NCBI RefSeq assembly: GCF_002994745.2
Contig: NC_037092.1
Location: 77,571,824 to 77,635,823, forward strand
DNA length: 64,000 nt
Reading direction: 5' to 3'
Origin: Rosa chinensis
Lineage: Eukaryota > Streptophyta > Magnoliopsida > Rosales > Rosaceae
Shown piece after piece: positions 14,344-52,857 of this stretch. The position numbers and the translations under genes were made by a program. Below the pieces are notes generated by a model. That model was given only the letters and a program-made list of their open reading frames with translations. It was not told where the DNA came from and ran no database searches. Each line of letters starts with the position of its first letter. Positions within the stretch are counted from its first letter, which is position 1.

Positions 14344-15560
14344 TGTTTGGCTCCAGTTTTGTTGCAACTGGTCAACAGTCTCTTTTCTTGCGCGGGCGTG
14401 CCAGCACCGTTCGGGTGCGGTCGTCGGGGGTGTCCCTTGACCTGACTTCTTTCAACCGATTGTGGACGAGGAGAGCACCAACCTCGTCATGGGATTCTTT
14501 ATGCCTCGTGGTGAGGACTTTTGCTAATCTTCTTGAAAATCACAATCGATACTCGATGTTGTAGATCGAGCAAAGCAAGAACCACTGGGAAGGAAAGAGA
14601 ACTTGCTAAAGCATGACTTTATCTTGGCTAGTTTGTGAGGGCGTTACCCTTGCTTGGCTGGTTCCGTAACTGTTGTGGTTGTGGTACTACAATCAGCTCC
14701 CGAGGAGACTAGGACCGAAGTATGTTGACAGAGGGTTTGGTGGCACTGAAAGTCGGCTTCTGAGAAGACTAGAACTAGGAGTGTGGTCACCAGTGAGTGA
14801 AAGAGAAGGAGAGAAGTTGCTCTTAGAGAGGTTTGCTCTAGAGAGACTTAGATCATCTTAGAGATGTATTGATGAGTGAATTGTGTGTCTTAGTGATGAA
14901 TTTGTAACCTCTATTTATAGGATACCATGCCAAAGCAGTTGGCATTAAACAAATGATAGTGGAGCATTAATTGGAGATAAGAAATGATGAATTTTGGAGA
15001 TAATGAGATAAGGAAGCATAATTGGAGATAAAGAACGATGAATTTCGGAGATAATGAGATAAGGAAGTATAATTGGAGATAAAGAACGATGAATTTTGGA
15101 GATAAGGAAGCACTTTCGGCTCCTTTATTCCTTCAATTATATCTCCATCAAGAACTCAGATTTTGACCATGACTTCTTCATAAAAAATGTTCCAATATGA
15201 GTCTAGATCATCTTGGTAAAATTTCAGAGCTTTTGGTCTAGTGGTTGGGCCGAAAACGCTGCTGGACCTCTTACAGGTCCAGTTTTCCAGTTTTTCTTCT
15301 GCAGAAAATTGGACTGATTTTTTGAAGGCCTTCCACTCAAACATAGCTCTGGAACTCTTCATAAGAAATGATCCTTGGGCTTTCTAAATTTAATCTGGAA
15401 AGTTTTAGCTCATTTGGATTTCATTTGGTTAGTCTTCCGCCCCTCCTTCCTTATTTAGCTCGGTTTCTCCTAGCCGAAGTAGGAAAATATGCTAAAGTTG
15501 ACTTTTCATGCTTCCATGCTTCCATCGTAGGCTTTATTTAGCCTCTAAATATATATTTCA
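14344..15560 (-). repeat. 3' LTR of gypsy copy 1
   Basis: On the plus strand it runs from TGTTTGGCTCCAG to ATATATTTCA, so on the coding strand it has TG...CA ends. It matches 35060-36280 over its full length; I count about nine mismatches in the first ~175 bases. It includes short tandem repeats of the word GATGAATTTTGGAGATAAGG (14940-15115) whose copy number differs from the other LTR. The polypurine tract lies just outside at 15566-15580. Confidence 0.9.
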
Positions 15561-16352: not shown

Positions 16353-19300
16353 ATGGCATCCAAGAAACCATTCGTTTTCGATCAGGCAGATGAAATCACT
16401 GAGAAAGCCGCATTCACCTAGCGGACTAACATGAGTATTCGATGTAGAAGTCAGACCGGAGAGGAGAGAAGTCGACTGATGGGCTTTGGTGGCGGTGATA
16501 GTCAAGCGAGTCTGGGTCCCACCTCGCGATCGTTTGCCAGATGATGCTATGGCCTATTATGGGCTTCCCATCCGCCATCCCATAGTGGCTCTTCGGCAGG
16601 TGCCTGGTGATTTTAGCAATTGGGGACCAAGGAGGAACGTGGGCTTCTGGCCTACCATCGCTCCCGAGGAAAAAGTTTGGTATCAGGAGGTCCGAGCGAG
16701 AGATTTGGCCCGATGGGATGCGGTGGGTATCACCCAAACCATCGATCTATGCTTCTGTCTTCCCCATAATACTAGCCCTGCACCGCTAGCGGCCGCTCTT
16801 TGCTTCTAGAACACCTCCAGCAATACATTCGATTTCCGGTTTGGGCAGATGAGCATAACTCTGCTGGATGTTCTTACCATCACGGGGTTGCCCATTGACT
16901 TTGACCCCTATGTGCATGGTCAGTTTGATGGCATTCAATTTTCTTTGAGAATGGATGTGGCTAGTCGGGGGCATCACAGCAGATCCTACCCAATCTGGCG
17001 CGACTATTACTGCACCCAGCGTGACCATACAAGAGGTATCGCATTCCTGGAATTCTGGCTTTGCAAATTTATCTTTTGCATTTCTTCCAACAAACCTACT
17101 GGGCCTTGGAATTCTCTAGCCACTTCTCTCTACAATGGTACTTGCATTGGCCTTGGGCAACCTGTATTGGGTGTGTTATATCGTTCCCTTTATAGGGCCA
17201 TAATGCGCCCCTTCGATACCGACATTAGTGGCCCTTTCTGGATCCTTGCCTTTTGGCTGCAGATTTATTTCCCTTGCTTCCGTCGCGATGATATTCCAAA
17301 GGAACCTCCAGTCGATTCCCTTTTGGGGAATTGGCTTTGCCGCAATGTAAGGTATCGAGCTCCTCCCTACTCCGAGTGTTTTATTTACTTGTACTTGCTG
17401 GGAGAGATGCCGGACCAAAAAATAGTCATTTCTAGGCGTTTCCCTCCTCCCCTTGACGATGGCTTTCTGCCCAGTGGACGGGATCATAGCGAAAGAGCCC
17501 TCCTGACCTTTTGTCGCGCCATCTCCTGCTTTGATATTTGTCTTGCCACCGACTGCATAAGTTATGAGCTCCATGCCCTTAACCACTTCACTCGCCAATT
17601 TGGGTTGGCCCAGTTGGTACCCTAGCCTCTGGTTGATTCTGCCAATTATTACACCTCTTGGCGGAGATTAGCCCCACCTGGGTCTACCCCCTTTCAGAGT
17701 CAGTTTACTTTGATAATGATTCCCCTTTGGGTCAGAGCGCTGTACCCCCTCAACGATGTCGACGATGATTATGCTGATTGGTGGAAAGAAGTGTCCGTGA
17801 ACTGTTGGGACCTGCCACATGACGAACTCTTCATCCTAATCTTTCGTGGCATGAGTAGTCCTGGTCCGGAGGACCGTACAACCCCCGTGACCTATTCTAC
17901 CTTCTCACTCATCGCGTCCAGGGATACAAATCCACGAGCTTAGGGCAACAGAAAGTTTTTGTCTTTCTTCACCATTCCTTTTCCTCATGAAATGATTTTC
18001 CCGCTCTTATTCCTGAGTGTGTTTTGCAACAAACTAACCGGAGCAAGACAACCTCTGTTCAGGCAGGGAAACAAAAGGCAATAGTAGAGGAGACTCCTGA
18101 TGATGAGTCTTCTCATGATGAAGATCCCGCTGAGGTAATTTGGTTAAGAACGATCCTAAACATGCATATTTGGTGTTTTCCCCCTTTTTGAATTGTGATT
18201 CTTTTCTCGTACAGGCCACTGCTGTCTTTGCTTGCAAATGTGATCGATCTCAATCCATTGAAGAGAGTTTTGAAGATGACGAACCTTTGAGAATGTGATT
18301 GGTAAAATCCGGCCCCATTTTATTCTATTTAAATTTTAGAATCTGGGCATGATCTTCATTATATATCTTTTGACAGGTCCGTCAGAGGACCACTGATCCC
18401 TCTCGCCTGAGCGAGGCTGGATCCTCAGCCACTGCAAAAGAGCCAACTCTATCACTAGTTCAAGCATCAACTAACCCCGTGGCGCCTCTTCCGTCTCCCA
18501 CATCTACAGAGCATCTGCAAGGTCCTACCATTCTAATAGCGATCTCCGATGATGACTCCTCGGAGCATGAAAGCGTGGAAAGCCACTCTGAGGCTTTTGT
18601 AGCTTATGAGGAACTGATGACGACAGAGATTCTCGCGGCACTAGAGGTCCAAGAGGTGAATGAGGTGAGGCCTCTTCCTCTTGGTGACCACGTACCAGAT
18701 ATTGACCCGACAGCTCGAGAGGTAAGCCACTGTTGGCCAATGCTTTCCATTTTCCTTTTTTATCCAACCCCGCTCTCTGACTTCCTGAATCTAACCAAGA
18801 TTCTGTTTGTACCGAGGAGGTGGCTACAAACACTGAGGGTCCTATCGGCGGGACAGTCGCCCCAGAGATGGAAAATGATACTGACGGTGATGGTTCCCCC
18901 TAAGTCTCACAAATAAATGAGACAACCGTCGAAGCCGAGGGCCCTGTGCTTGAATATGCTCCACTTGCCCATGATGAGCCGCGAGTTGAGTTTCCAGATT
19001 CTCCTACGGCTGAAGGGATAGACCAACCTATTGAAGATGAAGAAACTGAGGAAGTTGTCCACCCTTTTGCATTGGTGGTTCGTGATCCTGTGGCGCCTCC
19101 GCTGCCTCCTCATCCTACCAGATTCGAGAGATTAATGAGGGTGTTGGAGGTAACTCCTCCTTCTGCTGTGGATGAAGCTAATATGGTGCTTCACGAACAT
19201 CTGGGTCTTCGGGTATTGGAGACTGACATCCTCTCGCGAGTCTTGGAAGCTCTAAGGTATCTTCACCAGGAGAAGATTTTGACTCTGATAGGAGCATAAT

Positions 19301-21366
19301 TATGCGATATTAATAATGTTAATCTCTATATTTTCTTTGTTAGTTTAGTATATTTTCTAGTTATTTACGTTGTTTACTTGTTTTATAGGTATTTTGAGCA
19401 AAGAAGGAGAAAAGAAGTAAAAGAGGGATTGAAAGGCAAAATCGGCAAATCTGCCTGTGCAGATCAGTCAACTTCGACAGATCACTGAGACCAGCTCACA
19501 ATGAACCAGATGTTGATCTTTGTATTGATGGAAAGCTTCGGATGTCTAGTTTCCAGATATTTTTACGGCTTGTCAATATCATTTTTCTAGAAGAAGTTAT
19601 GGCCGATTTAGTACAACAAGGTCAGGCTGTGCGTGAATCTGAGGTTGGACGGGAATTTATGTTTCGAAGCCCAAATCACACTGAGAAGCCCAAGGACGAG
19701 TTTCTGCTTCATATTCTGACTTATGATGGACAATTGGCATGATGTGAATGGTTGGAATAAGTCATCAAGTTCAAGAGCCAATAGGAAAACTCCACCTAAG
19801 CACATGAGCCCTAATTCTTTTAGCTTTTGGATTTCCTACACAACATGAAAGATGAAGGCAACCTCTAAGCATATAAAAGGAGATCAATCTGCAGCCGCTC
19901 TCCCTCTCCCTCTCTCCTGCAACTTCTTAATTTTCTCTTTAGCTTGTTTTTGTTTTTTTTTCTATGAGAAACTAACTCTTTTGTTAGGGGTTGTTGAAGC
20001 CCCAACTCATGATTGTAAACTTGTTATGACTTTCAATTAGTTTTGTTTATCTATTGGATGAGAACCTAATTTCTATCTTCACATTAATGATTCCTTTGCA
20101 TGTTTTCTTTGGTGCGCAACTTAGATTGCATGTTTAGGATTCTATTGCTAAGAATGATCATTGCCTGTGCCTTGTTTCGAGGGTTCCGTTGAGAGTTTTA
20201 GAGTAGTAAATTGTCTATAAGGTGAGTGATTAGGTTCCTAGATTAATTGAGACGCGTCGTACTCATGATATCTTGTGATGTCTCGTTTTTCTTAATCTTA
20301 ATGATTTCTTTGTGTTAAATCTAGAGTTGCGTCAACCTAGGTTGCATTTTAGAAAATAGGTTAGGTATAGAGCGTCTCTCACCTAGCATACAAGTAAGGA
20401 AGAACAATAGGTTAATTCAGGCATTGGGTTAACTTGAGCATCTTCATCCATAAATAAATGAAATTAGGTTGAACATAATTCGTTTACTTGATTGATTGGT
20501 GGTGGATGCAATTCCTCTAACTTGTTTTATCTTTGATTTTCAAAACCCTAAATCAAGTCTTTTTATTTTCGGAGTCGTTCAGTGTTTTGTTTTTATTTAA
20601 TTAGTTCGTCAACCAAAACACCTTCAAAAATTATCAAATCTTGTCAGTAGTTAGTTTATCATGTCTAGAGTCTGTCTGTAAATTTTCGTGATATTTAGAA
20701 TAGTTTAGAGTCGTCTGCCAGTCAGATCTTTATAACTGGACAGTTTAGGTGTATTTTGTTTTGAGTCTTTAGATTAGTGATTAAACCACAATCTCTTGCG
20801 GGAACGATCCCTACTTACCTATACTATTTTCGACATTCTTGTAGGGTTAAATTATAGACATTTTTGTGCATCTATTTAGGTGTATAGAAATAGCCTATCA
20901 GACTCCGTGGTAATTTAGTGCTATCGACTCTTTGCTGAATGAACTTGATATGGCCCACCGAAGTCAATCGGCCGCGAACACCCAAGCTCATGACGCTCAA
21001 GAGGCTTTGAATAGTGTCTCTCGAGAAATGGACATCTCCCGCGATATTTTAAATGAACGAGCCATCTGCCTGCGGGAACTACAAATCCAAAGGTCCGACT
21101 TCAAACTTCAGATCAAGGACCTCCAAGCCTATTTAGCCTTTGTTGAGAATGCGATTGTTGCAGAAGAAGCTCAACTCGATGAACCTTTGGCTGCTTCTAA
21201 AGAAATGGGCCGCAACCTGGCCCGTATCAGAGAACGGGCCACTCAGGCCGAAGTTGGTGCCATTGTGGCGAAACGCTACATGGAGGAATTTTGTTTGAAA
21301 TTGAGCTTGTGGGCCAATCTTTATAGGCCCCCTCATAAACCGTTCGGTCTCCTCACATGCCAATAA
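16353..21366 (+). pseudogene. Antisense PMD gene of gypsy copy 1 (decayed, interrupted)
   Basis: Encodes a plant mobile domain (aminotransferase-like, PMD) protein read opposite to gag-pol. The start MASKKPF...ITEKAA at 16353 aligns with copy 2. TAG stops (both at Trp codons) at 16419 and 16807, a frameshift between 16422 and 16486, and a TAG at 17623 break it. The PMD core in 16486-17625 includes FGQMSITLLDVLTITG, GIAFLEFWLCKFIF and GLGQPVLGVLYRSLYR. Further reading gives acidic, Ser/Glu-rich exons with introns at matching places in copy 2 (for example GAG|GTAATTTGG near 18135, acceptor before 18216). The C-terminal part includes FERLMRVLEVTPPS (about 19120) and, beyond the inserted solo LTR, an alpha-helical, probably coiled-coil segment (20932-21366, with ERAICLRELQIQ). 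PMD proteins of the MAIN/MAIL type act in nuclear silencing; whether this one does is unknown. Confidence 0.8.
19286..20900 (+). mobile_element. Solo LTR inserted in PMD gene 1
   Basis: It starts TGATAGGAGC and ends AGCCTATCA, and is flanked by a perfect 5-bp target duplication GACTC (19281-19285 and 20901-20905). The 1615-bp sequence has no coding domains. Near its end 'tctcttgcgggaacgatcc' resembles a word common in plant gypsy (Athila-like) LTRs. A second copy in inverted orientation lies at 38019-40552. A single LTR with TSD means the full element recombined away. Confidence 0.9.
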
Positions 21367-22740
21367 TCCATTCTTTTAATAGCTAACTCCTCAAAAACTG
21401 CTCCTCACATGCTACTAGTCCCTTTTTTCCCGAGATTTGGAATCACTAATCTCGATTTACTGACATCGGTTTGACTCTTTAACCATCCATCCAAGGGTGG
21501 GGATTTTCCGGAAGTCCCTTTAAATAGTTGTATTTTGGGCAAGGAATACTCATAACAAATTTTCTGAAACATTCAAGAAATGGCCTTTCAGTCCTTGCTT
21601 CTCTTTCTCCTTCTTCACAAATCTTCCCCGCATGAAATGACCTTTAGCCTCTAAATTTTAGGCTTTATGGCGTAATATTAAGCCTGGGTTAGGCCTTATG
21701 GCGTAATCTTAGGCAACCCCTTGTTTTGCCTTTCTGGAATCTTGCAACAACAATGCCAGGCTTCATATTGGTTTAGAAATGCGAGGGGGCTCTGAGTGTG
21801 GGATCCAAGATCATGCGAGATCATTTTTGTTAGAATCCCACATGCGGAGTGAAACGGAGAAAGGGAGGACGGCCACTCTGAGGTTCGTCTTTCCTCCTCT
21901 GTTTCCTTCCTTCTGGACCTGGCCCGTGTTGTGCCCTCCAGATGGAAGGGGCTTTGGTTCTCACCTCCTTCTCCCCCTTTCTCTTCTCGATAGAATCTTG
22001 GAGGGATGAGAAAGGGTGGACTCTTTGAAGGAATGGGTTCAAGCTACAGAATGGTGGTTACCAAGGCTAGAGGGGGTGCAGAGACTCAAGCTGATATTAG
22101 GTTCCTTCACTCTCTGCCCCTCCTTGAGATAATGGCGCGGCTCAACCCGGCGTTGGAGTCCATAGCTGCTTCCAATTGAGGGGGCTTGGAGGCTCCATTT
22201 TCTTTCACTGGAGTCTCCCCTTCTCATGGATAATGGCATTGGCCAAGCCTATGTTGTATTCCTCTGCCGCTTCCATGTAAAGGGGGCGCGGGGGCTCCGT
22301 TACGCCTCTTTTTCCTTCCCTAAAGTCTGCTCCTCCTTGAGATAATGGCGCGGCTCAACCCAACGTTGGATTCCATAGCTGCTTCCACTTGAGAAAAGAT
22401 TCAGAAGATATCCGAAGATTCTTGTTTTGTATTCTAGCCACTTTTGGCTTTGTAATGAATGTACTGCTTTTGGCCGCAAAGACACTTTATGAATACAATA
22501 ATATTTTCTTATCCTGATATTCCAATATCCGTGAGAAGCCAATAATTGTGTCTCGCAAAGCCTCAAATATAGGCCCCCATAGTTGTATATTGAAAATAAT
22601 ATGAACTTTTAAAATATGTTCTGCGTCAAAATGAGCCTCTCTTCGAGGGTTTTGAGAAAATATTTATCTTTTGGATCCACTTGCTGGCCCCAACTCAATT
22701 CGCATTAATTAGCTGTTGAAAACTCCACCTTGAGAAGATA
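21367..22740 (+). other. Second plus-strand promoter-like unit of copy 1, non-coding
   Basis: It begins with a block containing GTTCGGTCTCCTCACATGCCAATAATCC (copied again downstream), then CCATCCAAGGGTGG, a TATA-like 'ctttaaatag' at about 21520 and an ATG at 21580 opening a frame of only ~25 codons. Copy 2 has the same order at 56270-56550. The body has a ~60 bp direct repeat (CTCCTTGAGATAATGGCGCGG, near 22120 and 22330). The end (CACTTTTGGCTTTGTA, then AATACAATAATATTTTC, 22437-22510) matches copy 2 at 57049-57140 and looks like a 3' end with polyadenylation words. Function unknown. Confidence 0.45.
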
Positions 22741-23055
22741 ATATTGAAAATGGAACAGTTACATCCTCGAAAACCGTTTGGTTCCCTCATGCCAATAATC
22801 CATTCTTTTTCTAGATTTAAGGCATTAATCACTCGTTGAAAACAACGATCCTGAAAAAACAGTCCCCGTCTCATGAATAGAACAGTTACCTCCTCGAAAA
22901 TCGTTCGGTTTCCCCATGTGCCAATAATCCCTTCTTTTCCGAGATTTAGGGCAACTTTAATCACGCTTTGCTGACACTTAGTTTGACTCTTCTCTTTGAC
23001 CGTCCATCCAAGGGTGGAGATTTGCATGCCTATATCTTCCTCCACATTATAAACC
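22741..23055 (+). promoter_or_regulatory. Duplicated promoter module upstream of the WUS-like copy
   Basis: 22880-23023 repeats the block at 21340-21505 (shared words: CGTTCGGT, TGCCAATAATCC, CCGAGATTTGG/AGG, TTTGACTCTT, CCATCCAAGGGTGG). A partial third copy starts near 22750. After the repeat ends, a TATA-like TTATAAAC (23047-23054) stands about 115 bp before the WUS-like ATG. A promoter role is inferred. Confidence 0.5.
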
Positions 23056-23168
23056 CAAATTTCCAATCCCAAAATTGTTTCATCAACTCGAATATTTCTA
23101 ACAGCAATCTTTCTTAATTACTCATCATCACCACTCTTCAATTCTCGCATTCTCTCAATCCATCACCA

Positions 23169-23758
23169 ATGGAACCTCAAAACCGGCATCCAACCAAAGA
23201 TGGAGGAAGCAACAAAGCAGCCGAGAGTAGTGCTAACATGCATTGTAGGAAGAGTAGTACCAGGTGGCTTCCTACTACAGATCAGATAAGAATCCTCAAA
23301 GAGCTTTACGATGACGAGTTAAGTCCCCAACTGTGGAGCAGGTTCAGAGGATCACTCTCCAGCTGAAATGGTATAGACAGATCGAGAACAAGAACGTCTT
23401 TTATTGGTTCCAGAACCAAAGGGCTCGGGAGAAGCTGAAGAAGAAGAAGCTCACTTCGGATGTTCAAGTGCCCAAGCAAAGATCAAGGCTTGTTGGTGGA
23501 TCTATTAATCTCAATTTTGGGTCAACTAGTTCTGCTGGTGTTGGTGGATCCATCATGGAACAACAAGGAGAAGATCACCAGGAGATTAAAACCCTTCCAC
23601 TGTTTCCCATGCACGGTGAGGACATCTTTGGCAACATGAAGATTACTTCCGAGGGAGGTAGCGGCTATGACGACTACTCCGGTGGTGGCTACAACGGTGG
23701 CTCTCGCATTTCCCTTGAGCTCAGCCTCAACTCCTCCGGAGCTACTGATTCGGCTTAG
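23169..23758 (+). pseudogene. WUSCHEL-like homeobox gene copy inside the gypsy element
   Basis: A WUS/WOX homeodomain transcription factor copy. The ATG at 23169 opens MEPQ, then a Ser/Gly-rich stretch and the homeodomain start SSTRWLPTTDQIRILKELY. One extra C in the run near 23323-23326 shifts the frame. In the next frame helices 2-3 follow with [19 protein letters not shown], the WUS-type recognition helix. Downstream are the WUS box [11 protein letters not shown] (about 23594-23626) and an EAR-like SLELSLN close to the TAG at 23756. All three are diagnostic of WUSCHEL itself. The copy is intronless and much shorter than WUS (about 195 codons, against roughly 290 in Arabidopsis), so the middle is lost. 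It lies between the LTRs of copy 1 and is absent at the same place in copy 2, so capture by the element is inferred. Confidence 0.85.
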
Positions 23759-23897
23759 TGTTGTATAGTGTTGCCCCCTAGTGTTGCTAGGCGTAGCGAA
23801 GAAATGATTATGGGCCTCAAAAACAGGCCTTCATGAATGGACTTCGCGAGTGTAGGAACACTAGAATTGTCCCCCATGTCTTATGTGAATAAACTGT
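23759..23897. other. Spacer between WUS-like copy and pol end
   Basis: The wording 'gttgccccctagtgttgctagg' is shared with copy 2 at 57348-57371, so this is original element sequence, and the capture boundary lies at about 23760-23775. No ORF. Confidence 0.6.
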
Positions 23898-26026
23898 CTA
23901 CAACTCCTCCGAGTCCCAGACATTGGGAAAGTATTTCTTCAAGTATCTCCCATTGATAGGGTTATGATGGACATCTCCATCCAGGTCCTTGAGATGAAAA
24001 GCTCCTTTCTCTAAGATTTTATAGATGATGTACGGGCCTCCCATTTTGGAGTCCATTTGCCGCGACCATCTAATTTTTCTCCAAGCGGGAGAACTGCTTT
24101 CCAAACCAACTCTCCTTTGCTGTAACTCCTTCCCTGCGTCTGCTTGTCATAGGCGCGAGCGACTCGTTGCTTTTCCATGACCAAACTATCTAAAGCCTCC
24201 AAGCACTTTTCGCTAAGGTCTTCATGTTTCTGCCACATAGCCTGAACGTAGTCTTCTCCAATGAAATGATGTTGCTCTTGAACTCGTAATGATTGGACAT
24301 TGACTTCCAACGGCAGGACTACATCATGGCCAAACATCAAAGCATAATGTGTTGTCGCGGTGGGATTCCTCTTAGAGGTGCGGTAGGCCCAAAAAGTTTC
24401 ATAAAGTGTCTCATGCCACTGTCGTGGATTAGCTTCCAACATTTTCTTTAGCAAATCGGTAATGATCTTGTTGCTGGCCTCCGCTTGACCATTAGACTGA
24501 GCATAATAAGGACTGGAATGGATGTACTGTGTTCCCCATTCTCTTGTCAATTTATCAACTTCACCACCCATGAAAACTGCCCCCCAGTCCGAAATAAAAA
24601 CTTCTGGGATCCCAAATCTGGAGATGATGTTTTTGAATAGGAATTGTCACAATGTGCCACCAGATGCTTCCTTCAAAGGTTCTGCTTCAACCCACTTTGT
24701 AAAGAAATCAGTCGCGACGATGATGAACTTCTGTTGAAGTGATGAATGTGGGTGAATCATCCCAATTAAATCCAGCGCCCATCCTCTTGCGGGCCAAGGC
24801 TGTATAATGGGCTACATTGGAATATTAGGAACATGTTGGACCGGGCCATGAGCTTGGCAGTCCAAACAACCTTTAGCGAACGCGATACAATCCTTCAAGA
24901 TACTGGGCCAAAAATATCCATGTCGTCTGAGCAACCATCGCATCTTTGGACCTGCTTGGTGGGCGCCACAAATGCCAGAATGAACTTCGCGCATGAGTTG
25001 TTTCGCTTCGTGGCCATAAACACATCTGAAATCCACGCTATCTTCTCCTCGTCTACGAAGTTCATCACCTCTGAGGAAGTAGTTGAGGGCAAGATAGCGA
25101 ATCCTTCTATCTGTGGTCTGATCAGGATGCTTGAGATAATTGATCAAAGGGATGCGCCAATCCACGTCGATGGATTCCAGGGTCGCAACTGAGCTATCGT
25201 CTGGAGGATCTCTTCTCGCCATCCATGAAGGAAGCGTGCGACGCTCGACTTTAAGGATTCTCTCCCACACGCCATATCTCAATGTTACCCCTATTGCCAG
25301 CTGGGCCAACTCGTTTGCGGCAAAATTTCGCTCGCGAGGAATGTACTCAAGATGTACATTATCAAATTGGTCCAACAGTTCTAATGCCTTGTTCCAATAA
25401 GGGACCAACGTGAAGCTATTGCATCTGAACTCATTGCACAACTGATTAATAACCAAAAGAGAATCGCCAAGTATTTGTACATCTCTGATTCCCATTTCTA
25501 GCAGTACTTCTAGGCCTATGATTATGGCCTCATATTCTTCCTGGTTGTTGGTACACTGAAACTCCAACTGGAATGAGTACGAAAAGTGATCTCCAGCAGG
25601 ATTCTCCAGTGCAATTCCTGCTCCTGCTAGCGTATCCGTTCTTGACCCGTGAAAATATAACACCCAGGGCTAGAGTGAGACTGTGGCTTGATACAGTGTA
25701 GTGTACTCTGGTAAGCACGCCAAATCTGGGCGATCTAAAATTGTGGCAGCGACCTCTAAGTCTCTAACTGCGGGGACATCCAGCATAGGGTGATGTGCCA
25801 GAAAATCCGTGATGGATTGCCCTTTTACTGCTTTACGTGGGACATACTGTAGTGAGAATTCTGATAAGGCAAGCACCCACTTGCCAATACGGCCTCTCAA
25901 GATAGGTCGCGATAGCATATACTTGACTAGATCGGTTTGACCAATGATGCAAGTAGTAAAGGACAACATGTAATGCCACAACTTGCATGCTGAGAAGTAT
26001 AATGTAAGACACAGCTTTTCCATTGG
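23898..26026 (-). pseudogene. pol part 2, copy 1: RNase H, archaeal-type RNase H, integrase
   Basis: From the CACTA break downward on the minus strand come: the end of the first RNase H (MEKLCLTLYFSACKL, then FLAHHPMLDVPAVRDLE; the track sequence starts at about 26065); a second RNase H (AGAGIALENPAGDHFSY, the CTNNQEEYEAIIIGLEVLL acidic helix, GDSLLVINQL, ANELAQLA); the integrase zinc finger (H..H with C..C in HGYFWPSILKDCIAFAKGC); and the DDE core (D in IVATDFFTKW, D in ISDWGAVF, E in NGQAEASNK). The ending is a short basic C-terminus. Stops and frameshifts occur: a Gln-to-TAG change at about 24812, another stop within 24572-24811, and a frameshift near 24060-24100. Two tandem RNase H domains are known from the Tat lineage. 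Confidence 0.88.
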
Positions 26027-26029
26027 AGT

Positions 26030-28931
26030 CACTACACCAAATATGGGCTTTAGAGACAACCACAAAACGTCTCTAAAAATATATTAGTGACTAATATATA
26101 GCTAAGTTTGTCTCTAATAGAAGGAGTGACAAATTAGCCATCCGTCTCTAAAGGTTGTGTCTCTAATGCTTATTAGGAACTGCTAGAAACAAAAATCCGT
26201 CCCTATTGCTGTTTCTCTGACACGTGTACAATAACAACCACGGACAATACAAACCGTCTCTACTTCTTTTAGAGACGAATATCTAATATTAATAAATGCC
26301 TCTAATGCATTTGAATGAATATGATGACAGCCAATTACAATCCAATTATTCCAATCCAATCAGCCTATAATTATAATTTTTTTTTGTTGGATCAAATATA
26401 TAGCAATAATAATTTAATATTTGTCTTGGGCAACAACTTGATAACAATCTGTCAAACCAAAAGCAAAAAAAAAAAAAAAACCTTGATAAGTTGATAACAA
26501 TATGCTTGATATATAAAAATAAACTGTTGAGTACAGATCCCTGGATTACTTGTTATAAAACAAAGTACAAATTAGTCAAGTATCGAATATGTATCCAAGT
26601 ATATGAGCTCATTTCTAAATTGAGCTTCAAGACACCTGCATCCCCTATAAGCAATCATGTTAGTCCAAAGTCTTTATGCCTTTAAACTGCAACCGTTTTT
26701 GCCAACTTCTCTTGCATCTCAACCTACAAAAGAAAATAGTTCACTTATCAATAGCACGTAAGATTACAAAGCTGCAAAAACTGTATTGAATACATAAACA
26801 AAGCTCTGCTATTCTTTGCATGGATGATGAACTTCGAAGCCAAAAACCATGCAATTAAAGATATGTAAAAAAATCTCAAACCTGAAGTTGTATGAACAAA
26901 AAGAAAACAAGTAGCCAAACTTGTTCTAGACCTATCATGTTATATCTGTTAGATATAAGTAAATCACAACAACTAATAAGGCCTGAAAAGAAATTAGAAA
27001 TAAAATAAAAAAAATAATACTAATAAGAAAAAAGAGAACTAACAAGGCCTTACATACTCACCATATGTTGGCCAATGCCAATTATGAATTATGCCATACA
27101 CATTTTTCTTTTGTCTACACCTAGATGGAAAACAACATCAGTCTATCAAGCAATAGTCAAGCACTTGTACTAAAATGATCATTGTCATGTATCTATCTAC
27201 TTATAATTAGAGATGCCAACAATCAAACATTTTAATTTACCTTGGACGTTGGTACATATCCTAGCAATGGCTAGTGCTTGTGTACTGCATAGAGAACATG
27301 TTAAAGAAAATGTAAGTCCACCTAAGATATGCTTGAACACCTAGAATGTCATGGTGTTCCAAGATGAAATTTGTAAGATCTTTTCATGACCAACCAACTT
27401 TTATCTAAAAACAAATACCGACAACAATAACGGGTAGTTACCTTATGGAAATTAGCAGCAGCAGCCCAGGGATCAAAATTGTCAAAAAAGGATGGCAGCT
27501 GTAGTTCCATTACCTGCAAAGTTGACACATAAGATGATAGCATAGGAATGAAGGATATATAGCACTAGTCAGAAAAAACAAGTCAATAAAATTCTTCTAA
27601 GAGATTAAGCTAAACCATCAGACTTGAAAGGTATTTCTTAGAGACACAAAAAGGTGAAAGAAAATGTTGCTTAAGATGAATGAGTTGAAAAGACAAATGA
27701 TGCAAGCACATATATAAATACCTCAAGGAGATTCAAGCCCAGAAAATAGCAAGTATAGGTGCCAACCCAAATGAGCACGCAATTGAATCCTCAATAACCT
27801 TCAAAAAAGAACACCTTAAACCCATAATATAGTTCAAATGTTTGTGTGCAGCTAATTATATAAGCAAGCATAAGTGGCACAAAAATGAGTACAAGGAACA
27901 ATTGCTAAATTCACATTACTGACCTTATTTCAATTTGATGTTCCAATCTTCATCATCATGTGTCAAGTTCAAAGTCACCAATACAACATCACTGACCATT
28001 TCATGCATACTATGTCAATATTAGTTTTTATCATAGAAGTAAACTGATCAAAATCAAAAGGAAAAAAACACTAGCTAGCCTTAAAACCACTTTCAATTCA
28101 TACCATCGTTTGTAGAATGATTGACATACTCAAAGATGTGACTTTGAGAGGAAAATAGAGCCGTTTCAAATAGTGAAAACCAATCAAATTTCAAGTGATT
28201 TGCTTAGACATTTATGCAAACACCTAATGGCATGCCCTAACTTCTCTGCAAATTTCAACCGCTTCCACTTAGACATTTCTACAAACACCTAATAGGCATA
28301 CCCCAACTTCTCGTCAAATTTCAAGGACCCACTTAGCATATATGTCATAGCCCATTTAGATTTGCAATAAGCCAAAGCGTCATATCAGAACACAAACCTC
28401 ATAGTCCTAGATAGTGAAGGGCTAGGATCTGAATTGGGTCCGTGAGAGCTTCTTCTGATCCTTTGCCTCCAATTAAACGAAACACCGAAGATTATTGGTC
28501 TTGCTTGTTGAAGAATGGTTGTGAAGGAGATTGTGGTTTGTGGTTTGTGGTTTCACCGTTGAGAGATTTGTACGTGGTTTGACTGAGACGGTGGCTACAG
28601 TGAGTCGGTACTAATGAAAGATGAGAAGAGCAGTTTGGGTTTTCATATTGTTGCTTATGAGATGAGATTTTTTCTTTTGAATTTCTAAAATCCAAAACTT
28701 TGCGCCAAAAAAATGTTGGGTCTTCAAATTTTTAGACTCAAAATTTTGAGGTCGCACCCAAAAGATTAGAGGGGCCACGTTCCGTCTCTAATACTATTAG
28801 AGACGAATTTTAATCTGCCACCACTATCATTAGAGACAATCACAAAAATTTTGTCTCTATTAAAATCACTAGAGACGGTTTTCTAAATCTGTCACTAGAC
28901 TTCGTCACTAAATACCAGTTTTGGTGTAGTG
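26030..28931. mobile_element. Non-autonomous CACTA (En/Spm) element in pol
   Basis: The ends are CACTACACCAAAT on the left and, on the other strand, CACTACACCAAAACTGG on the right. The 3-bp target duplication AGT is at 26027-26029 and 28932-28934, and removing the insert rejoins 'ttggagt' with 'gtacc' exactly as in copy 2 (59597-59607). Subterminal regions repeat GTCTCTAA and TTAGAGAC in both orientations, as CACTA elements do. The 2.9 kb interior has no transposase. Some exon-like pieces on the minus strand (27449-27513, flanked by AG and GT, reading MELQLPSFFDNFDPWAAAA) are unidentified. Confidence 0.92.
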
Positions 28932-28934
28932 AGT

Positions 28935-30371
28935 GTACCTTGTTTCACAATCTGTGAGTGTCCTACTTAGGTAAAAGATGGCATGTTCGACACCCTCTTC
29001 ATCATCCCGAGCGACGAGGCTGCCAATGGAAGACTTAGTTGCTGAAACATACAACTTTAATGGAAATCCAGCTCTGGGAGGAACAAGCACTGGTGGGCTT
29101 GCCAGATAGGCTTTGATTTTGTCGAAAGCCTCTTGATGTTTAGGTTCTCACACAAACTCTTTCTGTCCTTGCAACTTCAGCAGTGGGGAAAACGGCTGGA
29201 TTTTGCCCGCATAGTTAGAAATGAATCGTCGCAAAAAGTTGATCTTACCCAGTAGTCGCTGTAATTCTTTCTTCGTTCGCTGGGGAGATGCGTTGATAAC
29301 CGCGTTTGCCTTATCCTCAGGGACCTCAATGCCCCTTTGATGGACAATGAATCCCAGGAAATCGCCTGCCTGAACTCCAAAAACGCACTTAGCGGGATTC
29401 ATCTTGAGCTTGTGTAGCCGCATGCGCTCGAAAACTTTTCTGAGATCCGTGAAGTGATCTCCACTCTTCTTAGACTTCACGACGACGTCATCAATGTAAA
29501 CCTCTAAGATCTTCCCAAGTATGTCGTGGAAGATCAGGTTCATGGCTCTCTGATATGTTGCTCCGGCATTCATCAGTCCAAAAGGCTTGACCACATATTC
29601 AAAAAATCCAGTGAACCCAGGGCAGCGGAATGCGGTCTTGTGTCTATCTTCTTCCGCGACCGGAATTTGGTGATATCCCGCTATACCGTCCATGAAAGAC
29701 AACAGTTCGTGCCCTGCAACTACGTCTACCAATATGTCCGCAACAGGCATGGGGTAGAAGTCTTTAGGTGTAGCCAAATTAAGGTCTCTGTAATCTACGC
29801 AAATCCTCATCTTGCCATTCTTCTTTCGAACAGGCACTATATTGGACAGCCACTTATTGTACTTGGCTACCCTGATAATGCCCGACTTGTGCATCTTTTC
29901 GACTTCCTCTTTGACCAGAACTTGGGTCTCCGAGTTCATTCTCTGCGGCTCGTGCTTAACAGGCCTCTTATCAGGCAGCGTTGGTAGTTGGTGGCATACC
30001 AAGTCTGGTGATAGGCCTGGTATGTCCTCGTATTTTTCCGCGAAGCAGTCCTTGAATTCCAGCAATAATTCGACGAGCCTCTGTTTCTCTCTAGGCTCTA
30101 AGTAAGTGTTGATAGCCACTTCTATGGGCTCATCAGTTGTTCCCAGATTGACCTTTTCAATAGGGTCCCTAACCTTCGGAGGTGTGTCATCCAATGCCAC
30201 TGGAGCAAGCTGAATCTCTTCTTCCTCCTCTTCTTGGCCCGTGAACTCTTCATTAACAATTTCTAAGGTCGCGACTCGATCATAGGCCTCTTTTTCCACC
30301 AAGTATGAGGATAGCCTCTCGTACAAGGAATGGAAGGCCTCTACCTCTTCCTCCATGAGTTCGTGATCCAT
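28935..30371 (-). pseudogene. pol part 1, copy 1: reverse transcriptase and start of RNase H
   Basis: The frame opens at the ATG at 30371, whose A is the last base of the stop ending the upstream gag-pro frame (TAATG). After ~150 residues of Glu-rich linker comes the RT: VPVRKKNGKMRICVDYRDLN, then SFMDGIAGYHQIP and TAFRCPGFTGFFEY, the catalytic YIDD (29487-29498) and FLGFIVHQRGIEV. The RNase H begins in 28908-29090 (LKLYVSATKSSIGSLVARDDEEGVEHAIFYLSRTL in part) and is cut by the CACTA insertion at 28931. The RT frame 29148-30371 is fully open (407 codons); a stop/frameshift lies between 29090 and 29148. Part 2 continues at 26026. Confidence 0.9.
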
Positions 30372-31508
30372 TAATTAACACTTGGAGATGGCACCGCATA
30401 TCCAGGCCTTTCGAGGTCGTTTTTTGCTACCGCGAGCCCCCATTGTGCCAATTCAGAGGTCGTCACCCCTGTGGGGCGGCCCTTATCACCAATACCAACG
30501 ACTTGTAAAGGAGAGATTGGTTCTAGGTAATACCTTGCATCTAAGTAGTTGGCAGACACCGAAAAAGGTCACGGGTCTGCTTTAACAATTTCCGCCTTGT
30601 CTGCGACTCTGTCCCATATGATCAGCTCCTGATGAAGGGTGGATGGGACACAATAACTCCTGTGGATCCAGTCGCGGCCCATAATTGCGCTATATGCCAC
30701 ATAGCAATCTGTAACAAAGAAAGCTTAAACCTCTTCTGCAGGACCCACCTTGACTCGTAGGAAAATCAAACCCAATGTTTTGGTCATAGTCCCCGCGAAG
30801 TTCTTTAGCATAAGGGACGTGGATTGGATCTTCTCTTTCTTGATCCCTAGTAGATGCATGGTTCTGGTAGTAATGACATTCACAGTCGCGCCGGTATCAA
30901 CCATTATCTTGCTGACCTTAGTCCCATTAATTTTTGCTATGATATACAAAGGTCTCATGTGTTGCACCATGGCGGGTGTGGGTCTTATGAATCTCATGAA
31001 GAAACCCTTGTTGTTAGCATCTTCAATCTTAAGGAACACTGCTTCTTTCACCAGCGTTGTTGCAGCTGAAGTGATCTGCAACTGCTGTTCTCCAATTGCG
31101 TCAGCTTATACGCATTCCTGCGTAGCGACTGGTAAGGCATACTTAGCAGGGAGTACATAAACCATATGGCACGAGGTATCCACCATTTCTGTTTCATCCA
31201 TGTCATCATCAAGATTGAGCTTGGGTTCATCAGCTGGGATATCGCCGTTGAACCGTTTAACCATGAAAGCAACCAATGATTCCTCTGTGAGGATTACCGC
31301 CTTGGCTTATTCGTGCTCCTGTACCATGGGAACCTGGTTCAATGACTCTAAAATTTGTTTCGCCACTGGCACTTCCTCTGGGAGAGCGACCACCAAGCTT
31401 TGAACTTTCTGCACAATAGCGGACCGATTGTCTTTGCCCCCCAGCCTGTCAAAGATGGAAGGCTCGCTATTTCTTCCTTCGCGAGATACTCTCCGCCAAA
31501 CATTGACT
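30371..31508 (-). pseudogene. Protease region of gag-pro, copy 1
   Basis: A retroviral-type aspartic protease domain with the catalytic DTGA at 30887-30898 (SKIMVDTGATVNVITTRTM) and a following LGI. Downstream of it the domain is interrupted by a stop at about 30725, and then continues with ARYYLEPISPLQVVGIGDKG to a TAA at 30371-30373. The acidic stretch upstream (31081-31270) matches copy 2 but is split between frames. In copy 2 gag and pro appear to belong to one frame once a single lesion is allowed for, so a fused gag-pro polyprotein is inferred. Confidence 0.82.
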
Positions 31509-34388
31509 TTACGAGCTGGCGGTGGTTCTTGCCTCGCGGGAACTAGGGACTTCTCCTGAGTGCTGCTCTTGGGGGCACGTGGCTTTTGCTCTTTGTGCGA
31601 AACTTTGGGCCGCTGTTTCTGAACTTGAGGAAACGAATCTCTTGGAGGCCAGTGCCTCCAATTGTCTCTGATACTCTTCTGGAGGTTTCAGTAATTGCAA
31701 TGGTTTGATCAGTCCTTGATCTAGTGCTTCCAAAGTTCGCTTTGCTTCTCCGAACATCCGCTGGAGTTTTCTCTTCCTTGAAGAGCTCATCTCCACCGCC
31801 TTGCCCTTCTCCTGTGTATACCATCTCCCTTCTTTGATGGAGGATGTCGACACTGGCGGAATGTAAGGTCTAGTTAAAACCCCTTGTTGCTTATCTGCTT
31901 GCCCTTGTTCCCTCGCGATCTTCAACTTTTTGAATAAGTTTGAGTCCCTTGGAGAAGGAGTTTCTGAACCACTGTGTACTCTTGGGCTGCGTGGTTGGAA
32001 ATTTCTAGAGGATGATATTAACCGTATTGGCGGCAGAGATCCAAAGCGGACAGTCTGGGATGTTTCCTCATACAGGGCTTGAGTGTCACATTCTTCCTTG
32101 CACCACGAGCATAGGACGATGGGTAAACGAGTCTTGGATTCCCGCTTCACGACTTTGTCTCCAACCCTTTTCAAATCCTTAGTCGCGTGGACTGGACTTT
32201 GATTCTGCTGATCTTTTTCACCCCACGCCACGTCCACCATGTTGATGCCGGTATCTGGGAAGGGATCTAGGTCCACCAACACTGCTGCTGTTGTCGGCGC
32301 CTCTACTTGCAAACTACCGTTATTTAACCAGATTTGGATCTGATCCTTCAGCTTAATACAATCGACTGTATTATGATTCCACATATTATGGAGTTTGCAG
32401 TATTTCTTCCCCCTTAGATGCTCTGGTTTGGGAAATGGGCCGAAGTCGGTTTTCACTATATTCGCGGCGATCGTTTCATCCAAGATGTCATGCGCTTTGT
32501 TCGCGTCGTAAGTATAACTTGCGAACTCTGGTTTGGTGAAAACCATCGACTTGAGCTTCCCCGGCTCTTTGCACAGCTTCAGTTGCTTTAGCGTTGAAGC
32601 CTTTTTCCCGGTGAGTTCCAGGGCAGCTATCTCGTCTTCTTCAGACTCATCAGCCTCTGCTATACTAGATTCCTCACTCTTGTAGTAAGGATCAAAGGAA
32701 CTGGATTGATGGCTGAGCGCAGCCACTGTTCGGCATTTCCCTGGGATGTATGTCCCCTTCGAGGCATTTTTCATAACGTCCATCTCCCTGAGCAAGTGCT
32801 CGAAACTTCCTACTTCTGTGATCAGTTCCCCCATGGAATTGAACATGCTTCCATGCTATTTTTTGCGTTGGCGGGGTTCTAAGCCTTTGATTGCCAACTT
32901 CACCAGTTCTTTCTCCGGCAGAATCACGTTCAACTTTCCTTTCTAGATCTGAAAGCGCTGAAGGTACATAACAACGGATTCAGTTGGTTGCTGAGCCATC
33001 TGAGTGAGTGAAGCCAGATCTACTTCCGGCTCGATAGTCCCGAAGGTTTCCTTGAACAACTTCTCCATCGCAGGCCAACTCGCAACTGATCCCGGTTGCA
33101 GCTTAGTGAACCAGGTGAAGGCAGACCCCGACAAAGAAGTAGCGAAGATGTTACACTTCAAATTATCGTCGTTCTGGTACTGGCCACACTATACTCGAAA
33201 CCTAACCAAATGGGCCGCGGCATTTTCGACTTCCTCTCCCGAGAAAGTAGAGAACGTAATGTTCTTATATCCCCTAGGATAAGGTGTCTGTGTAATATGC
33301 GGTGGGAAGGGTCCCTAGTAGGCCTCCTCCAGGTTAGGCCTCTGGTTCGCGGCCCTGATAGTTGCTTCTACCTCCTCTTTCCTTATATATATTGGATCAG
33401 GAGGAGGTGGGTGAACCACTGTATCATCAACTGGCCAGATCAGTGGTGGCGCCTGTGAAACCTGATTAACCTAAGATACGCCGCCTCCATGGATCATTTT
33501 GTGTCGGGTTGACGTCTGTGACGTAAAACCCACTGTTGGCTGACCCTTTGTGGATGCAGTGACCTTCGCTGGACTTTCAACTTGGTCGATACCATAATGG
33601 CTTACTGGAGGTTGATCATGGTGCACGTATTCAACTCCGTCGCTGTCGTATTGGGGAAACTGGCTATGATATGAAAAGGCCCCTTCATTGATTTTCAAAG
33701 TCTTGGTCCCTTGCGTGACTGATGACGCGGCATTGTTCTTCCCACCAGATGCCAGAGTAGTCTCTTTACCTTTGACTGATACAGCAGTAGCAGATGTGGC
33801 TGTACTGCCGCCGCTTGCTTTTTCTCAAGCATTTGGTGGTATGTACTTGCCAGATATGGGGGACTGACCTAGAGATCCTAGAATGGTGCTAGGATCTCCC
33901 AGTGTTTTATGTAGAACCTCTCTGGCCTGATCAAGGTCAGCCTTCTGCATGGCCACCTGGGTCACGACGTTAGATCCTTCTTTGCGAATCGTCGCGACTT
34001 CTGAAGCGATGTGTTTGCTTGCGACCAACAGCTCTTCGTGGTTCTTCTACATTTTTTGGTTTATGCCATCCAATTGACCTTGTGTTTGTTGTGCCCCTAG
34101 CTCAAGCCTCTTGACCGAGATCGTGAACTCATCAAGCCGTCGACGGTCCTCCGCAAGGGCTTTTTCCATCTTCTCATGGTATGCAGCAGAATTCTGTTGA
34201 AGGATATTAAGCCGCTCTTCTATGGTCGCATTTTCTGGAACGAGAATAGGCACAAAGTCAATAGTTGTAACTGCGCTCGTGGCTACCTGGGTGATGCTAG
34301 ACGTATTGCCAGCCTGATTAGGCTGGGCGGTGGGAACTTTCTCGCCTTCAGTGGTAGGATGTTGATTTCCTCCTCATTCAGTTGACAT
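31509..34388 (-). pseudogene. gag region, copy 1
   Basis: The inferred start is the ATG at 34388 (MSTE), followed at once by TGA (Arg CGA in origin). Then comes a coiled-coil N-terminus (ATIEERLNILQQNSAAYHEK, 34047-34253). The retrotransposon gag domain contains SGSAFTWFTKLQPGSVASWP and DLASLTQMAQQPTESVVMYL (32943-33161). The long open stretch 31509-32846 has a CCHC-like finger variant (YCKLHNMWNHNTVDC) and a basic, Ser-rich tail. Most of this lies in a single reading frame, broken by at least five stops. Gag would form the particle shell that packages the element's RNA. Confidence 0.85.
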
Positions 34389-35059
34389 CTCTGTCGATAG
34401 AGGGTGGGGAGAAAATCTTTGGATTACTTGTTCTTCGGAAAGACCACGACACTCTGCACGCGAGTGCGGTCTGTAACTGGAGGTCTTATGTTTCGAGCAG
34501 TTAACGTAAACCTTTTGATAAGGATTCGCGCTTGACTTCCCTATGGCTTCTGGAAGTCTGAATTGAAAGTAGCTGAATTCAATAAGACACTGTAAATCAA
34601 GGTTTAGACTTGTGGCCCAAGTATAGTCGCCTAGACACAAACTTTCTTTCAAATCCTTTGGGCAACCTTACTAAAATGGCCAGGTGGGGGAGGGCGAACA
34701 AAAGAGGTAGAATCCATTTTGGCATGAACTACTCCCACATAGTGGTTTAAGCCCATTTGCACGCACTTCTGGATTCAATAACCTGTTATGAATGTTGTCC
34801 CCTTTCTAGACACCATTTCACATAGGCTATACTTACTAAGATGAGAAATATCATAAGTGTGAAGACAGTTCAACAAGTGTTAATAAAAACTGCCCTTAAC
34901 CTTAAGGGACCTGAACTAGGCACCAATAAGGAGTTTAGGTCAATATTAACAAAAGAGACTTCACCTATTCTGTTATGATTCACAACCCCTTACCAACCTC
35001 AACTTCTTAATAGTGGTGTGATTTACAACTCACAGTATGTCCTACCGGGTGTGCCAAAA
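34389..35059 (-). other. 5' leader of gypsy copy 1 with primer-binding-like site
   Basis: Untranslated leader between the 5' LTR and gag. On the minus strand, three bases after the LTR, stands TGGCACACCCGGTAGGAC (35056-35039), the expected place for a tRNA primer-binding site starting TGG. I do not assign the tRNA. No other coding feature; the frame at 34374-34652 upstream of gag has no known domain. Confidence 0.65.
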
Positions 35060-36280
35060 TGTTTGGCTCCAGTTTTGTTGCAGCTGGTCAACGGTCTCTT
35101 TTCTTGCTCGGGCGTGCCAGCACCGTTCGGGTGCGGTCGTCAGGGGTGTCCCTTGACCTGACTTCTTTCAAGCGATTGTGGACGAGGAGAGCACCAAACT
35201 CGTCATGGGATTCCTTATCCCTTGTGGTGAGGACTTTTGCTAATCTTCTTGAAAATCACAATCGATACTCGATGTTGTAGATAGAGCAGAGCCAGAACCA
35301 CTGGGAAGTAGAGAGAACTTGCTAAAGCGTGACTTTAGCTTGGCTGGTTTGTGAGGGCGTTACCCTTGCTTGGCTGGTTCCGTAACTGTTGTGGTCGTGG
35401 TACTACAATCGGCTCCCGAGGAGACTAGGACCGAACTATGTTGACAGAGGGTTTGGTGGCACTGAAAGTCAGCTTCTGAGAAGACTAGGACTAGGAGTGT
35501 GGTCACCGGTAAGAGAAAGAGAAGGAGAGAAGTTGCTCTTAGAGAGGTTTGCTCTAGAGAGACTTAGATCATCTTAGAGATGTATTGATGAGTACGTAAA
35601 TTGTGTGTCTTAGTGATGAATTTGTAACCTCTATTTATAGGCTACCATGCCAAAGCAGTTGGCATTAAACAAATGATAGTGGAGCATTAATTGGAGATAA
35701 GAAATGATGAATTTTGGAGATAAGGAAGCATAATTGGAGATAAAGAATGATGAATTTCGGAGATAAGGAGATAAGGAAGCATAATTGGAGATAAGAAATG
35801 ATGAATTTTGGAGATAAGGAAGCACTTTCGGCTCCTTTATTCCTTCAATTATATCTCCATCAAAGAACTCAGATTTTGACCATGACTTCTTCATAACAAA
35901 TATTCCAATATGAGTGTAGATCATCTTGGTAAAATTTCAGAGCTTTTGGTCTAATGGTTGGGCCGAAAACGCTGCTGGACCTCTTACAGGTCGAGTTTTC
36001 CAGTTTTGCTTCTGCAGAAAATTGGACTGATTTTTTGAAGGCCTTCCACTCAAAAATAGCTCTGGAACTCTCATAAGAAATGATCTTTGGGCTTTCTAGA
36101 TTTAATTTGGAAAGTTTCAGCTCATTTGGATTTCATTTGGTTAGTCTGCCGCCCCTCCTTCCTTGTTTAGCTCGGTTTCTCCTAGCCGAAGTAGGAAAAT
36201 GTGCTAAAGTTGACTTTTCATGCTTCCATACTTCCATGATTCCATAGTAGGATTTATTTAGCCTCTAAATATATATTTTG
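35060..36280 (-). repeat. 5' LTR of gypsy copy 1
   Basis: Plus-strand TGTTTGGCTCCAG to ATATATTTTG; the outer end reads TG where the other LTR has CA, so the terminal dinucleotide is mutated. Identity with 14344-15560 continues for five bases more (AACTT) and then stops. Internal GATGAATTTYGGAGATAAGG repeats differ in number from the other LTR. Confidence 0.9.
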
Positions 36281-51526: not shown

Positions 51527-51671
51527 CAAGAAGAGAACCAGAGAATTCCAAGTACGGTGTTTCCGAGAGGGAAGAAGACTGTGAAAGGAAAAAATAGAGG
51601 GAAAGTCTCTGAAGGGTATAATGGGAAAATAGACGATGTTGTTGTACAAGTGGCTAATGGCTATTTGCCGG

Positions 51672-52600: not shown

Positions 52601-52760
52601 AACATTGCCCCCCAGGCCCTGAGATCAGACCCGCGAAAACGTAACTAATTGAAGGGGACTTAGACGACACGCCTGATGACCAAAACGAGGTCATAAATGA
52701 AGGTCGCGTCCATTCGCTTTGCAAAACGTAGGTTCGTCGTATCGTTTTCCTCACAAAATA

Positions 52761-52772
52761 TATTATTTAAAC
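52761..52772 (+). promoter_or_regulatory. TATA box of the antisense PMD gene, copy 2
   Basis: TATTATTTAAAC about 90 bp before the ATG at 52858, giving a leader of ~60 nt rich in CA and CT without another ATG. It supports dedicated plus-strand transcription. Confidence 0.5.
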
Positions 52773-52857
52773 CCGCAACCACTTCAAACCTGTCACATCA
52801 GAAACCCTTCCAGTCTCTTAAACCCAGAAACTACATACTCCTCACAGAAACCCAGAA

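Follow-up and report, generated by a model that had tools for sequence, protein, structure and literature searches.

How a coding sequence of the WUSCHEL (WUS) type came to lie between the long terminal repeats (LTRs) of a retrotransposon, and what has become of it there, is the question raised by a 64,000-nucleotide stretch of the Rosa chinensis genome (hereafter, the window). WUSCHEL is a master gene of plant stem cells, and the meristem is the plant's route to the germline. For R. chinensis, 381 WOX genes have been reported. Chromosome 2 holds 226 of these, and 364 of the 381 fall into rose-only clades, of which 359 were described as almost silent during rooting (PMC11405225). For Rosa rugosa, a genome paper gives WUS/WUSCHEL orthogroup counts of 46 and 14 (PMC8213826).

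Element architecture in the window

Two related elements were recognised in the window (Table 1). The domain order of copy 1 is that of a Ty3/gypsy element, with an LTR pair around gag-pol and with reverse transcriptase (RT), RNase H and integrase. A PPT-like G run sits immediately inside its left LTR, and the two LTRs, which form the one complete pair seen among the copies, differ at 52 of 1,208 aligned columns (K2P 0.0445). A target-site duplication was sought at the ends of copy 1 and was not found (outer 5 bp CATTT and AACTT); it may have been lost with age, the insertion being 4.5% diverged. In the 3' part of pol, the minus-strand frame at 24812-25669 matched the Pfam families PF13456 (RNase H-like, E 6.6e-19) and PF17921 (integrase zinc finger, E 1.2e-08), and the frame at 24011-24646 had no Pfam match, its counterpart in copy 2 being PF00665. 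Since its pol has extra sequence that copy 2 lacks, copy 1 can be counted as a dead element of its family.

The lineage name Tat/Retand is provisional for the rose element. An antisense open reading frame (ORF) between pol and the 3' LTR, a Tat/Retand feature, is present as the ORF with a plant mobile domain (PMD), and the TRP28 domain (PF04195) gave no match in the 18 open window frames scanned with Pfam. Of the dual RNase H typical of that lineage, one RNase H-like domain, that at 24812-25669, was seen; the region past the RT is interrupted.

Other sequences of the window include a 1-kb stretch that occurs twice in inverted orientation at 93% identity, inside copy 1 (19895-20900), where it breaks into the antisense ORF region, and outside it (38019-39024). 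Pieces of a cation/H+ exchanger (CHX-type) gene lie on the minus strand at 4508-6858 (PF00999, PF23256, PF23259), and copy 2 is adjoined, on the same strand, by an open frame of 553 residues that contains DUF7870 and a methyltransferase domain (50012-51673).

Table 1. Features of the two element copies and of the WUS sequence in the window
Feature	Position	Strand	Basis or remark
Element copy 1, Ty3/gypsy			21.9 kb, LTR to LTR; carries WUS inside
3' LTR, copy 1 (left in window)	14344..15560	(-)	Direct repeat of 35060-36280; PPT-like G run adjoining
Antisense ORF with PMD	16810..17625	(+)	PF10536, E 9.8e-21
Another open antisense frame	20914..21366	(+)	Coiled-coil-like by eye; ORF list, no Pfam match
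Promoter-like antisense element module	21328..21540	(+)	TATA-like box TTTAAATAG at ~21519; alignment with copy 2
Duplicated form of the module, upstream of WUS	22749..23023	(+)	Related to 21328-21506
WUS 5' UTR	23041..23168	(+)	94% identity over 128 bp to canonical rose WUS locus L036
Shortened intronless WUS coding sequence	23169..23758	(+)	Homeodomain, WUS box, EAR-like LELSL; frame broken near 23318
'Post' element sequence immediately 3' of WUS	23759..23920	(+)	After WUS in 36/40 loci; aligns with copy 2
3' part of pol	24011..26083	(-)	RNase H-like, integrase zinc finger and integrase-like frames; Pfam
Pol interruption, copy 1 relative to copy 2, ~2.9 kb	26030..28930	(.)	Self-BLAST joints 26029/28931 vs 59603/59600
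Reverse transcriptase, copy 1	29148..30374	(-)	PF00078, E 4.2e-27
Gag-like frame, copy 1	31509..32855	(-)	By position, ORF list; no Pfam match
Leader inside 5' LTR	34567..35059	(-)	In 11/11 loci examined; follows WUS in gag-pol-less copies
5' LTR, copy 1	35060..36280	(-)	Direct repeat of 14344-15560
Copy 2, cut by window end	51946..64000	(-)	LTR-like, PMD, rve, H2C2, RT, protease
Copy 2 LTR-like	51946-52273
Copy 2 PMD	52822-54135		PF10536, E 9.4e-27; equivalent of copy 1 PMD ORF
Copy 2 rve and H2C2	57816-58598		Pfam
Copy 2 RT	59919-60581
Copy 2 protease	61163-61621

The WUS sequence and its upstream module

The first-pass annotation of the window had described a WUS-like homeobox gene inside a Ty3/gypsy element, intronless and on the strand opposite gag-pol, and this description was borne out: the homeodomain sequence lies between the LTRs of copy 1, with WUS on the plus strand and the RT, RNase H and integrase zinc finger on the minus strand. 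The interval assigned to it, 22741-23775, fits the WUS unit, and the upstream part of that interval (22749-23023) is a duplicated element module. The coding sequence is divided between two frames. The first has its ATG at 23169 and is open to 23366, is WUS-like only up to about 23318, and by itself had no Pfam match. The second runs from 23315 to 23758, ends with TAG, contains the homeodomain (PF00046, E 1.1e-06 in Pfam) and, among solved structures, matched WUSCHEL 6ry3 (E 2.9e-12); it also contains a WUS box and, at the C-terminus, an EAR-like motif (LELSL). A +1 frameshift had been proposed at about 23325; the frame break is real, but it is located near 23318 instead. Several genomic relatives, 95% identical to the window WUS, keep an open frame. 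Descent from WUS, and not from some other WOX gene, is indicated by the exon-by-exon match of six relatives (L029-L034) to canonical rose WUS and by the nearest database relatives, which are WUS proteins.

Copy 2 lacks WUS, as had been noted before: tblastn with 120 WUS-family proteins (E <= 0.01) matched the window at 23.0-24.0 kb only. The flanks common to the two copies lie roughly where they had been placed, at 22419-22506 and 57054-57144 (73%) on one side and from 23764 and 57342 onward (64%) on the other.

WUS is placed behind a TATA-bearing module related to one elsewhere in the element and in the WUS-less relative. The module stretch 21477-21876, which holds the TATA-like box, aligns with copy 2 at 56382-56778 (63%, E 4e-28); 22911-23023 is 75% identical to 21402-21506, and 22749-22838 is 82% identical to 22876-22970. 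At two other loci (L030 and L033), WUS is joined by a version of the module that has a TATA and a brief leader. The module is predicted to drive an antisense transcript, in which case the element would have brought its own promoter to WUS.

WUS copies across the rose genome

The R. chinensis genome (515 Mb, seven large contigs C1-C7) gave at least 46 matches to the window WUS stretch, at 88-100% identity and on C1 to C7 (best 40 of 646 candidates scored), and at least 245 matches to the WUS protein of Argentina anserina (131 of 843 candidates scored). From 48 loci retrieved, seven repeats (L002-L008, the same places as L009-L015) and the canonical gene (L036) were removed, leaving 40 distinct non-canonical loci, window included; the loci were picked through WUS matches, and the sample holds WUS-bearing elements. 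At least two non-WUS element pieces were found around WUS in all 40 loci, in most cases with agreeing offsets and a single orientation, whereas the canonical locus (C2, 11.71 Mb; 3.4 kb compared) had no element piece at E <= 1e-4. The latter shares only WUS sequence with the window, including the 5' UTR (Table 1). The comparison gave the best match per piece only; L016 had one weak, reversed PMD match (67%), and in L047 the promoter-like and 'mid' pieces are shifted downstream.

Annotated rose proteins also extend from WUS into the element. In P0015, 31 residues of the tail are identical to L038 element sequence; the P0019 tail runs into element sequence past WUS (22 residues, 77% identical to L033). 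The tail of R. rugosa P0025 had no match among the retrieved loci, and a scan of viral contigs with P0001 gave seven pattern matches and no relatives.

These results cover several of the checks that the first-pass annotation had proposed. A search with 23169-23758 in the same genome found many loci, on all seven large contigs; the canonical WUS locus is L036, and the same insert recurs in other family members, all 40 distinct loci having element pieces around WUS. A single-locus gene without LTR flanks, which had been named as an outcome that would speak against an element-borne WUS, was not what was found: the loci are many, and R. rugosa proteins show the same short forms. WUS is carried by the Ty3/gypsy element and has spread along with it.

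Capture of a spliced WUS mRNA

Canonical rose WUS encodes 299 residues in three exons separated by two GT-AG introns, both of which are missing from all six near-full-length copies (L029-L034), located on six contigs. L029 aligns end to end with the three canonical exons, and both introns were therefore removed exactly. In L030-L034, the second exon joint is exact and the first falls within a deletion of roughly 30 exon bases, so that exact removal of the second intron holds for all six copies. The 3' end of WUS is common to the six within 2 nt, about 20 nt before the stop codon; the same element sequence follows it, and none of the six has poly(A) there. Among the 40 loci, 37 still show the element's part of the joint, which in the shortened subfamilies amounts to 33-67 bases. 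At the other end, the captured sequence of L030 and L033 begins about 620 nt before the ATG, some 53 nt past the TATA-like stretch of the canonical promoter; in L036 coordinates, the start lies at 872 in L031, at 915 in L029 and at 1350 in L032 and L034, both of which have a shorter leader. A third intron in the 5' UTR of L029 and L031 (canonical 941 to 1280) was considered and rejected, since GT-AG ends are absent and a direct repeat is present at the site; the jump is read as a deletion at the repeat.

The absence of introns from six copies with one common WUS end indicates that a spliced mRNA was captured, probably once; a single capture is the simplest reading of a 3' breakpoint common to six copies on six contigs. 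The earlier alternative of an mRNA or a gene is hereby settled as spliced mRNA. The description of the WUS as shortened, also part of that proposal, fits the window's subfamily but not other copies, which are nearly full length; as these are found in the same genome, shortening probably followed capture. A tree had likewise been suggested, and in one of 38 proteins, comprising WUS proteins without other WOX genes, a branch with support 99/97 parts canonical WUS and the other rose rows from the WUS proteins of seven other plants, Argentina and Fragaria included, which places the capture in the rose lineage. R. rugosa has short forms like that of the window (P0025) as well as others (P0003), so that the capture is older than the split of R. 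chinensis and R. rugosa.

Altogether, the capture of WUS by a rose Ty3/gypsy family and its spread can be regarded as almost certain. A spliced WUS mRNA, captured over a stretch that starts some 620 nt ahead of the start codon and stops about 20 nt short of the stop codon, is carried between the antisense PMD ORF and pol, antisense to gag-pol, and has been amplified into copies scattered through the genome.

Element-borne WUS and the rose WOX family

The published rose WOX clades can be related to these copies, the clade V motifs matching P0048 and the clade IV motif P0056 (PMC11405225). P0056 had at least 165 matches in the genome (150 of 678 candidates scored), and among the matches listed an internal stop was present in 9 of 150 P0056-like rows. 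At one P0056-like locus (L049), the element leader (90%) stands some 670 bases past the WUS stop, as in the gag-pol-less copies, and the 'post' and integrase pieces were not found. On the evidence of the leader at this one locus, the P0056-like burst probably took place on a non-autonomous derivative. Element-borne WUS thus probably explains the 381 WOX genes of rose, the largest subfamily being tied to the element at one locus.

As for genomic placement, 144 of 145 P0056-like copies on large contigs, among the matches listed, lie in four blocks that were drawn after the data had been seen and amount to about 100 of 504 Mb (C2 33.8-87.3, C7 2.7-14.9, C3 0.5-16.5 and C1 56.5-67.9 Mb); the same blocks hold 2 of the 40 window-type copies. 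Such blocks may correspond to segments that a hybrid rose received from different parents. Upstream of WUS in L049, on the other strand, an open frame at 2206-2544 starts MARTKVTPRRGVNQRR; this is possibly the beginning of gag, in which case WUS would lie in the leader.

Two other histories can be weighed against direct capture and spread by the element. WUS could have been copied by a LINE, inserted into the element as a retrocopy and amplified with it, a route that yields an intronless copy in either orientation but that we hold to be unlikely. LINE copies usually lose their 5' side. In the rose copies the 5' side is kept, poly(A) is absent, the 3' end lies within the coding region in six of six, and in L030 and L033 WUS is joined directly behind the TATA-bearing element module. 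The antisense orientation, which lends the LINE route some support, differs from the sense orientation that template switching to a co-packaged mRNA would be expected to give; the position of the joint, behind the antisense module, suggests that an antisense transcript of the element was involved. Multiplication of rose WUS genes by whole-genome or tandem duplication, with elements adjoining by chance, is scarcely credible and is already contradicted for the 40 loci compared: the copies are without introns, have a common joint with element sequence and occur on all seven large contigs, and at the canonical locus introns are present and the element is absent. Copies of one subfamily do crowd on C2, as duplication would allow, and whole-genome duplication is the hypothesis of the paper that counted the family, which called for more evidence and reported 0 collinear genes within the rose genome (PMC11405225).

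Fate of the captured sequence

The open frames of one subfamily are 248-249 residues long and those of the window's subfamily 182-197, and other rose proteins have 187-212 residues. The short forms keep the homeodomain and the repression motifs without the middle of WUS. By motif pattern, homeodomain, WUS box and EAR-like motif stand in one frame in 17 of the 40 copies and do not in 23, window included. Codon tests took open frames only, from 12 short and 6 longer copies; L018 and L046, which have full-length frames failing the motif pattern and are hence outside the 17, were both included, and L014, one of the 17, was left out. For the short copies, omega was about 0.6 (grid 0.5-0.8 within 1.92 lnL) and omega 1 was rejected (2dL 8.4), the homeodomain alone giving 2dL 4.7 and the rest 2.2. 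The longer copies did not reject omega 1 (2dL 0.66). Both sets together gave omega 0.7 (2dL 8.5), and their homeodomain alone did not reject omega 1 (2dL 2.18, with the kappa grid at its edge); the grid was extended for the short set, its homeodomain, its rest, the combined set and the longer set. Codon models without transition bias had given 2dL 19.6 for the short set and 24.3 for the combined set, and were replaced by the transition-bias values above.

Loss of element parts and change within the homeodomain were also observed. No integrase, RT or gag piece is left in 10 of 20 10-kb loci, which keep WUS, followed by leader and LTR; one further locus of the 20 is partly deleted. Homeodomain position 50 is a classical DNA-specificity position. 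At this residue (WFxN), the window's subfamily has Q and the longer subfamily V; four annotated rose proteins have G, K or R there. N51 is kept in all 30 homeodomain sequences compared.

Possible roles of WUS in the element

A WUS-like protein with a homeodomain and with WUS-box and EAR repression motifs may benefit the element, a suggestion that we put forward tentatively and that draws on the open frames, the moderate constraint in one copy set and the retained repression motifs. Such a benefit could come if the WUS-like protein promoted a stem-cell-like state from which the germline forms, or if it tuned transcription where it is expressed. The weak statistics count against a benefit, as do the near silence of rose-only WOX genes in rooting and a search for WUS sites: five WUS-site-like motifs showed no significant enrichment in both LTRs, the leader and two promoter-like stretches relative to 300 shuffles each (lowest P 0.073). 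In a bolder and rather doubtful proposal, the lineage would have made WUS its own antisense accessory gene: one spliced mRNA would have been set behind the element's antisense promoter, its protein kept under selection and homeodomain position 50 varied, and the product would now work within meristem-like cells, or give rise to them, so that new copies are inherited.

The chances are about even that WUS is instead a passenger, which came by chance to lie behind a promoter-like module on capture and was multiplied by element activity with no gain to element or host. The 23 copies without an open frame holding all motifs would be expected of a passenger, as would the failure of the longer copies to reject omega 1, the near silence of rose-only WOX genes in rooting (PMC11405225) and the absence of WUS-site enrichment from the element stretches tested. 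The rejection of omega 1 by the short copies argues the other way, together with the retention of WUS in the ten gag-pol-less loci, which were themselves found through WUS, and the count of nine internal stops in 150 P0056-like rows, which a recent burst alone could give. There is also a slim chance that the copies act via RNA or as competitors, with small RNAs or truncated proteins dampening host WUS. The form of the short copies, lacking the middle of WUS, would suit competition, and the antisense placement could form dsRNA with the element transcript (for the general idea, PMC7264820); divergence of the short copies from canonical WUS (dS 0.26, dN 0.16) speaks against this, as it would weaken cross-silencing.

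Relation to known elements

Antisense additional ORFs are described in the Tat lineage (Retand, Grande, RIRE2), with TRP28 in 97% of Retand clusters (PMC11963269). The rose element resembles these as a large Ty3/gypsy element whose antisense ORFs lie between pol and the 3' LTR; some Tat elements are also known to have antisense promoters in their interior (PMC11963269, PMC7264820). It differs in that its ORF has a clear host source, WUS, whereas the origin of the Tat ORFs is called unknown, and in having PMD where Retand clusters have TRP28 (PMC11963269). PMD is the most frequent extra domain in a gypsy survey (PMC9289625). Giant gypsy elements of Phalaenopsis with an AlkB-type RNA demethylase offer a further likeness, a host-like gene fixed and amplified by a large gypsy lineage, although the cargo there is an enzyme and in rose a developmental transcription factor (PMC9289625). 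Other elements contain a B3 DNA-binding domain or a LONELY GUY-type domain; the latter (YgdH), cytokinin-linked and found in Citrus and poplar gypsy elements, is possibly another meristem-related cargo (PMC9289625).

Host genes inside LTR retrotransposons are also known from Bs1, Rider and captured genes of rice and sorghum. In contrast to rose WUS, which is antisense and present in many copies, in subfamilies and in non-autonomous forms, these captures are said to run, as a rule, in the same direction as gag-pol and to number one copy or a few (PMC7264820, PMC13317346). The rose WOX clades I-V include, in clades IV and V, relatives of the window WUS, treated there as ordinary genes (PMC11405225), and the stem 'transpos' has 0 occurrences in the text of that paper. 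The stem 'homeo' has 0 occurrences in PMC7264820, PMC9289625, PMC11963269 and PMC13317346, as has 'wus' in PMC9289625, and no report of WUS or another homeobox gene within a plant LTR retrotransposon was found among the titles listed in searches of the open-access literature.

Implications for rose biology

Why roses have several hundred WOX genes is a puzzle in the literature, for which the capture supplies a concrete cause; it also calls for caution, many annotated rose 'WUSCHEL-like' genes being retrotransposon parts. In addition, a host origin is now known for one antisense additional ORF in a large gypsy element, most such origins being called unknown (PMC7264820). With WUS as cargo, the idea that action on the meristem profits retrotransposons becomes open to test. 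Should the lineage indeed have made WUS its own accessory gene, roses would hold hundreds of element-owned WUS variants, which may also affect meristem traits.
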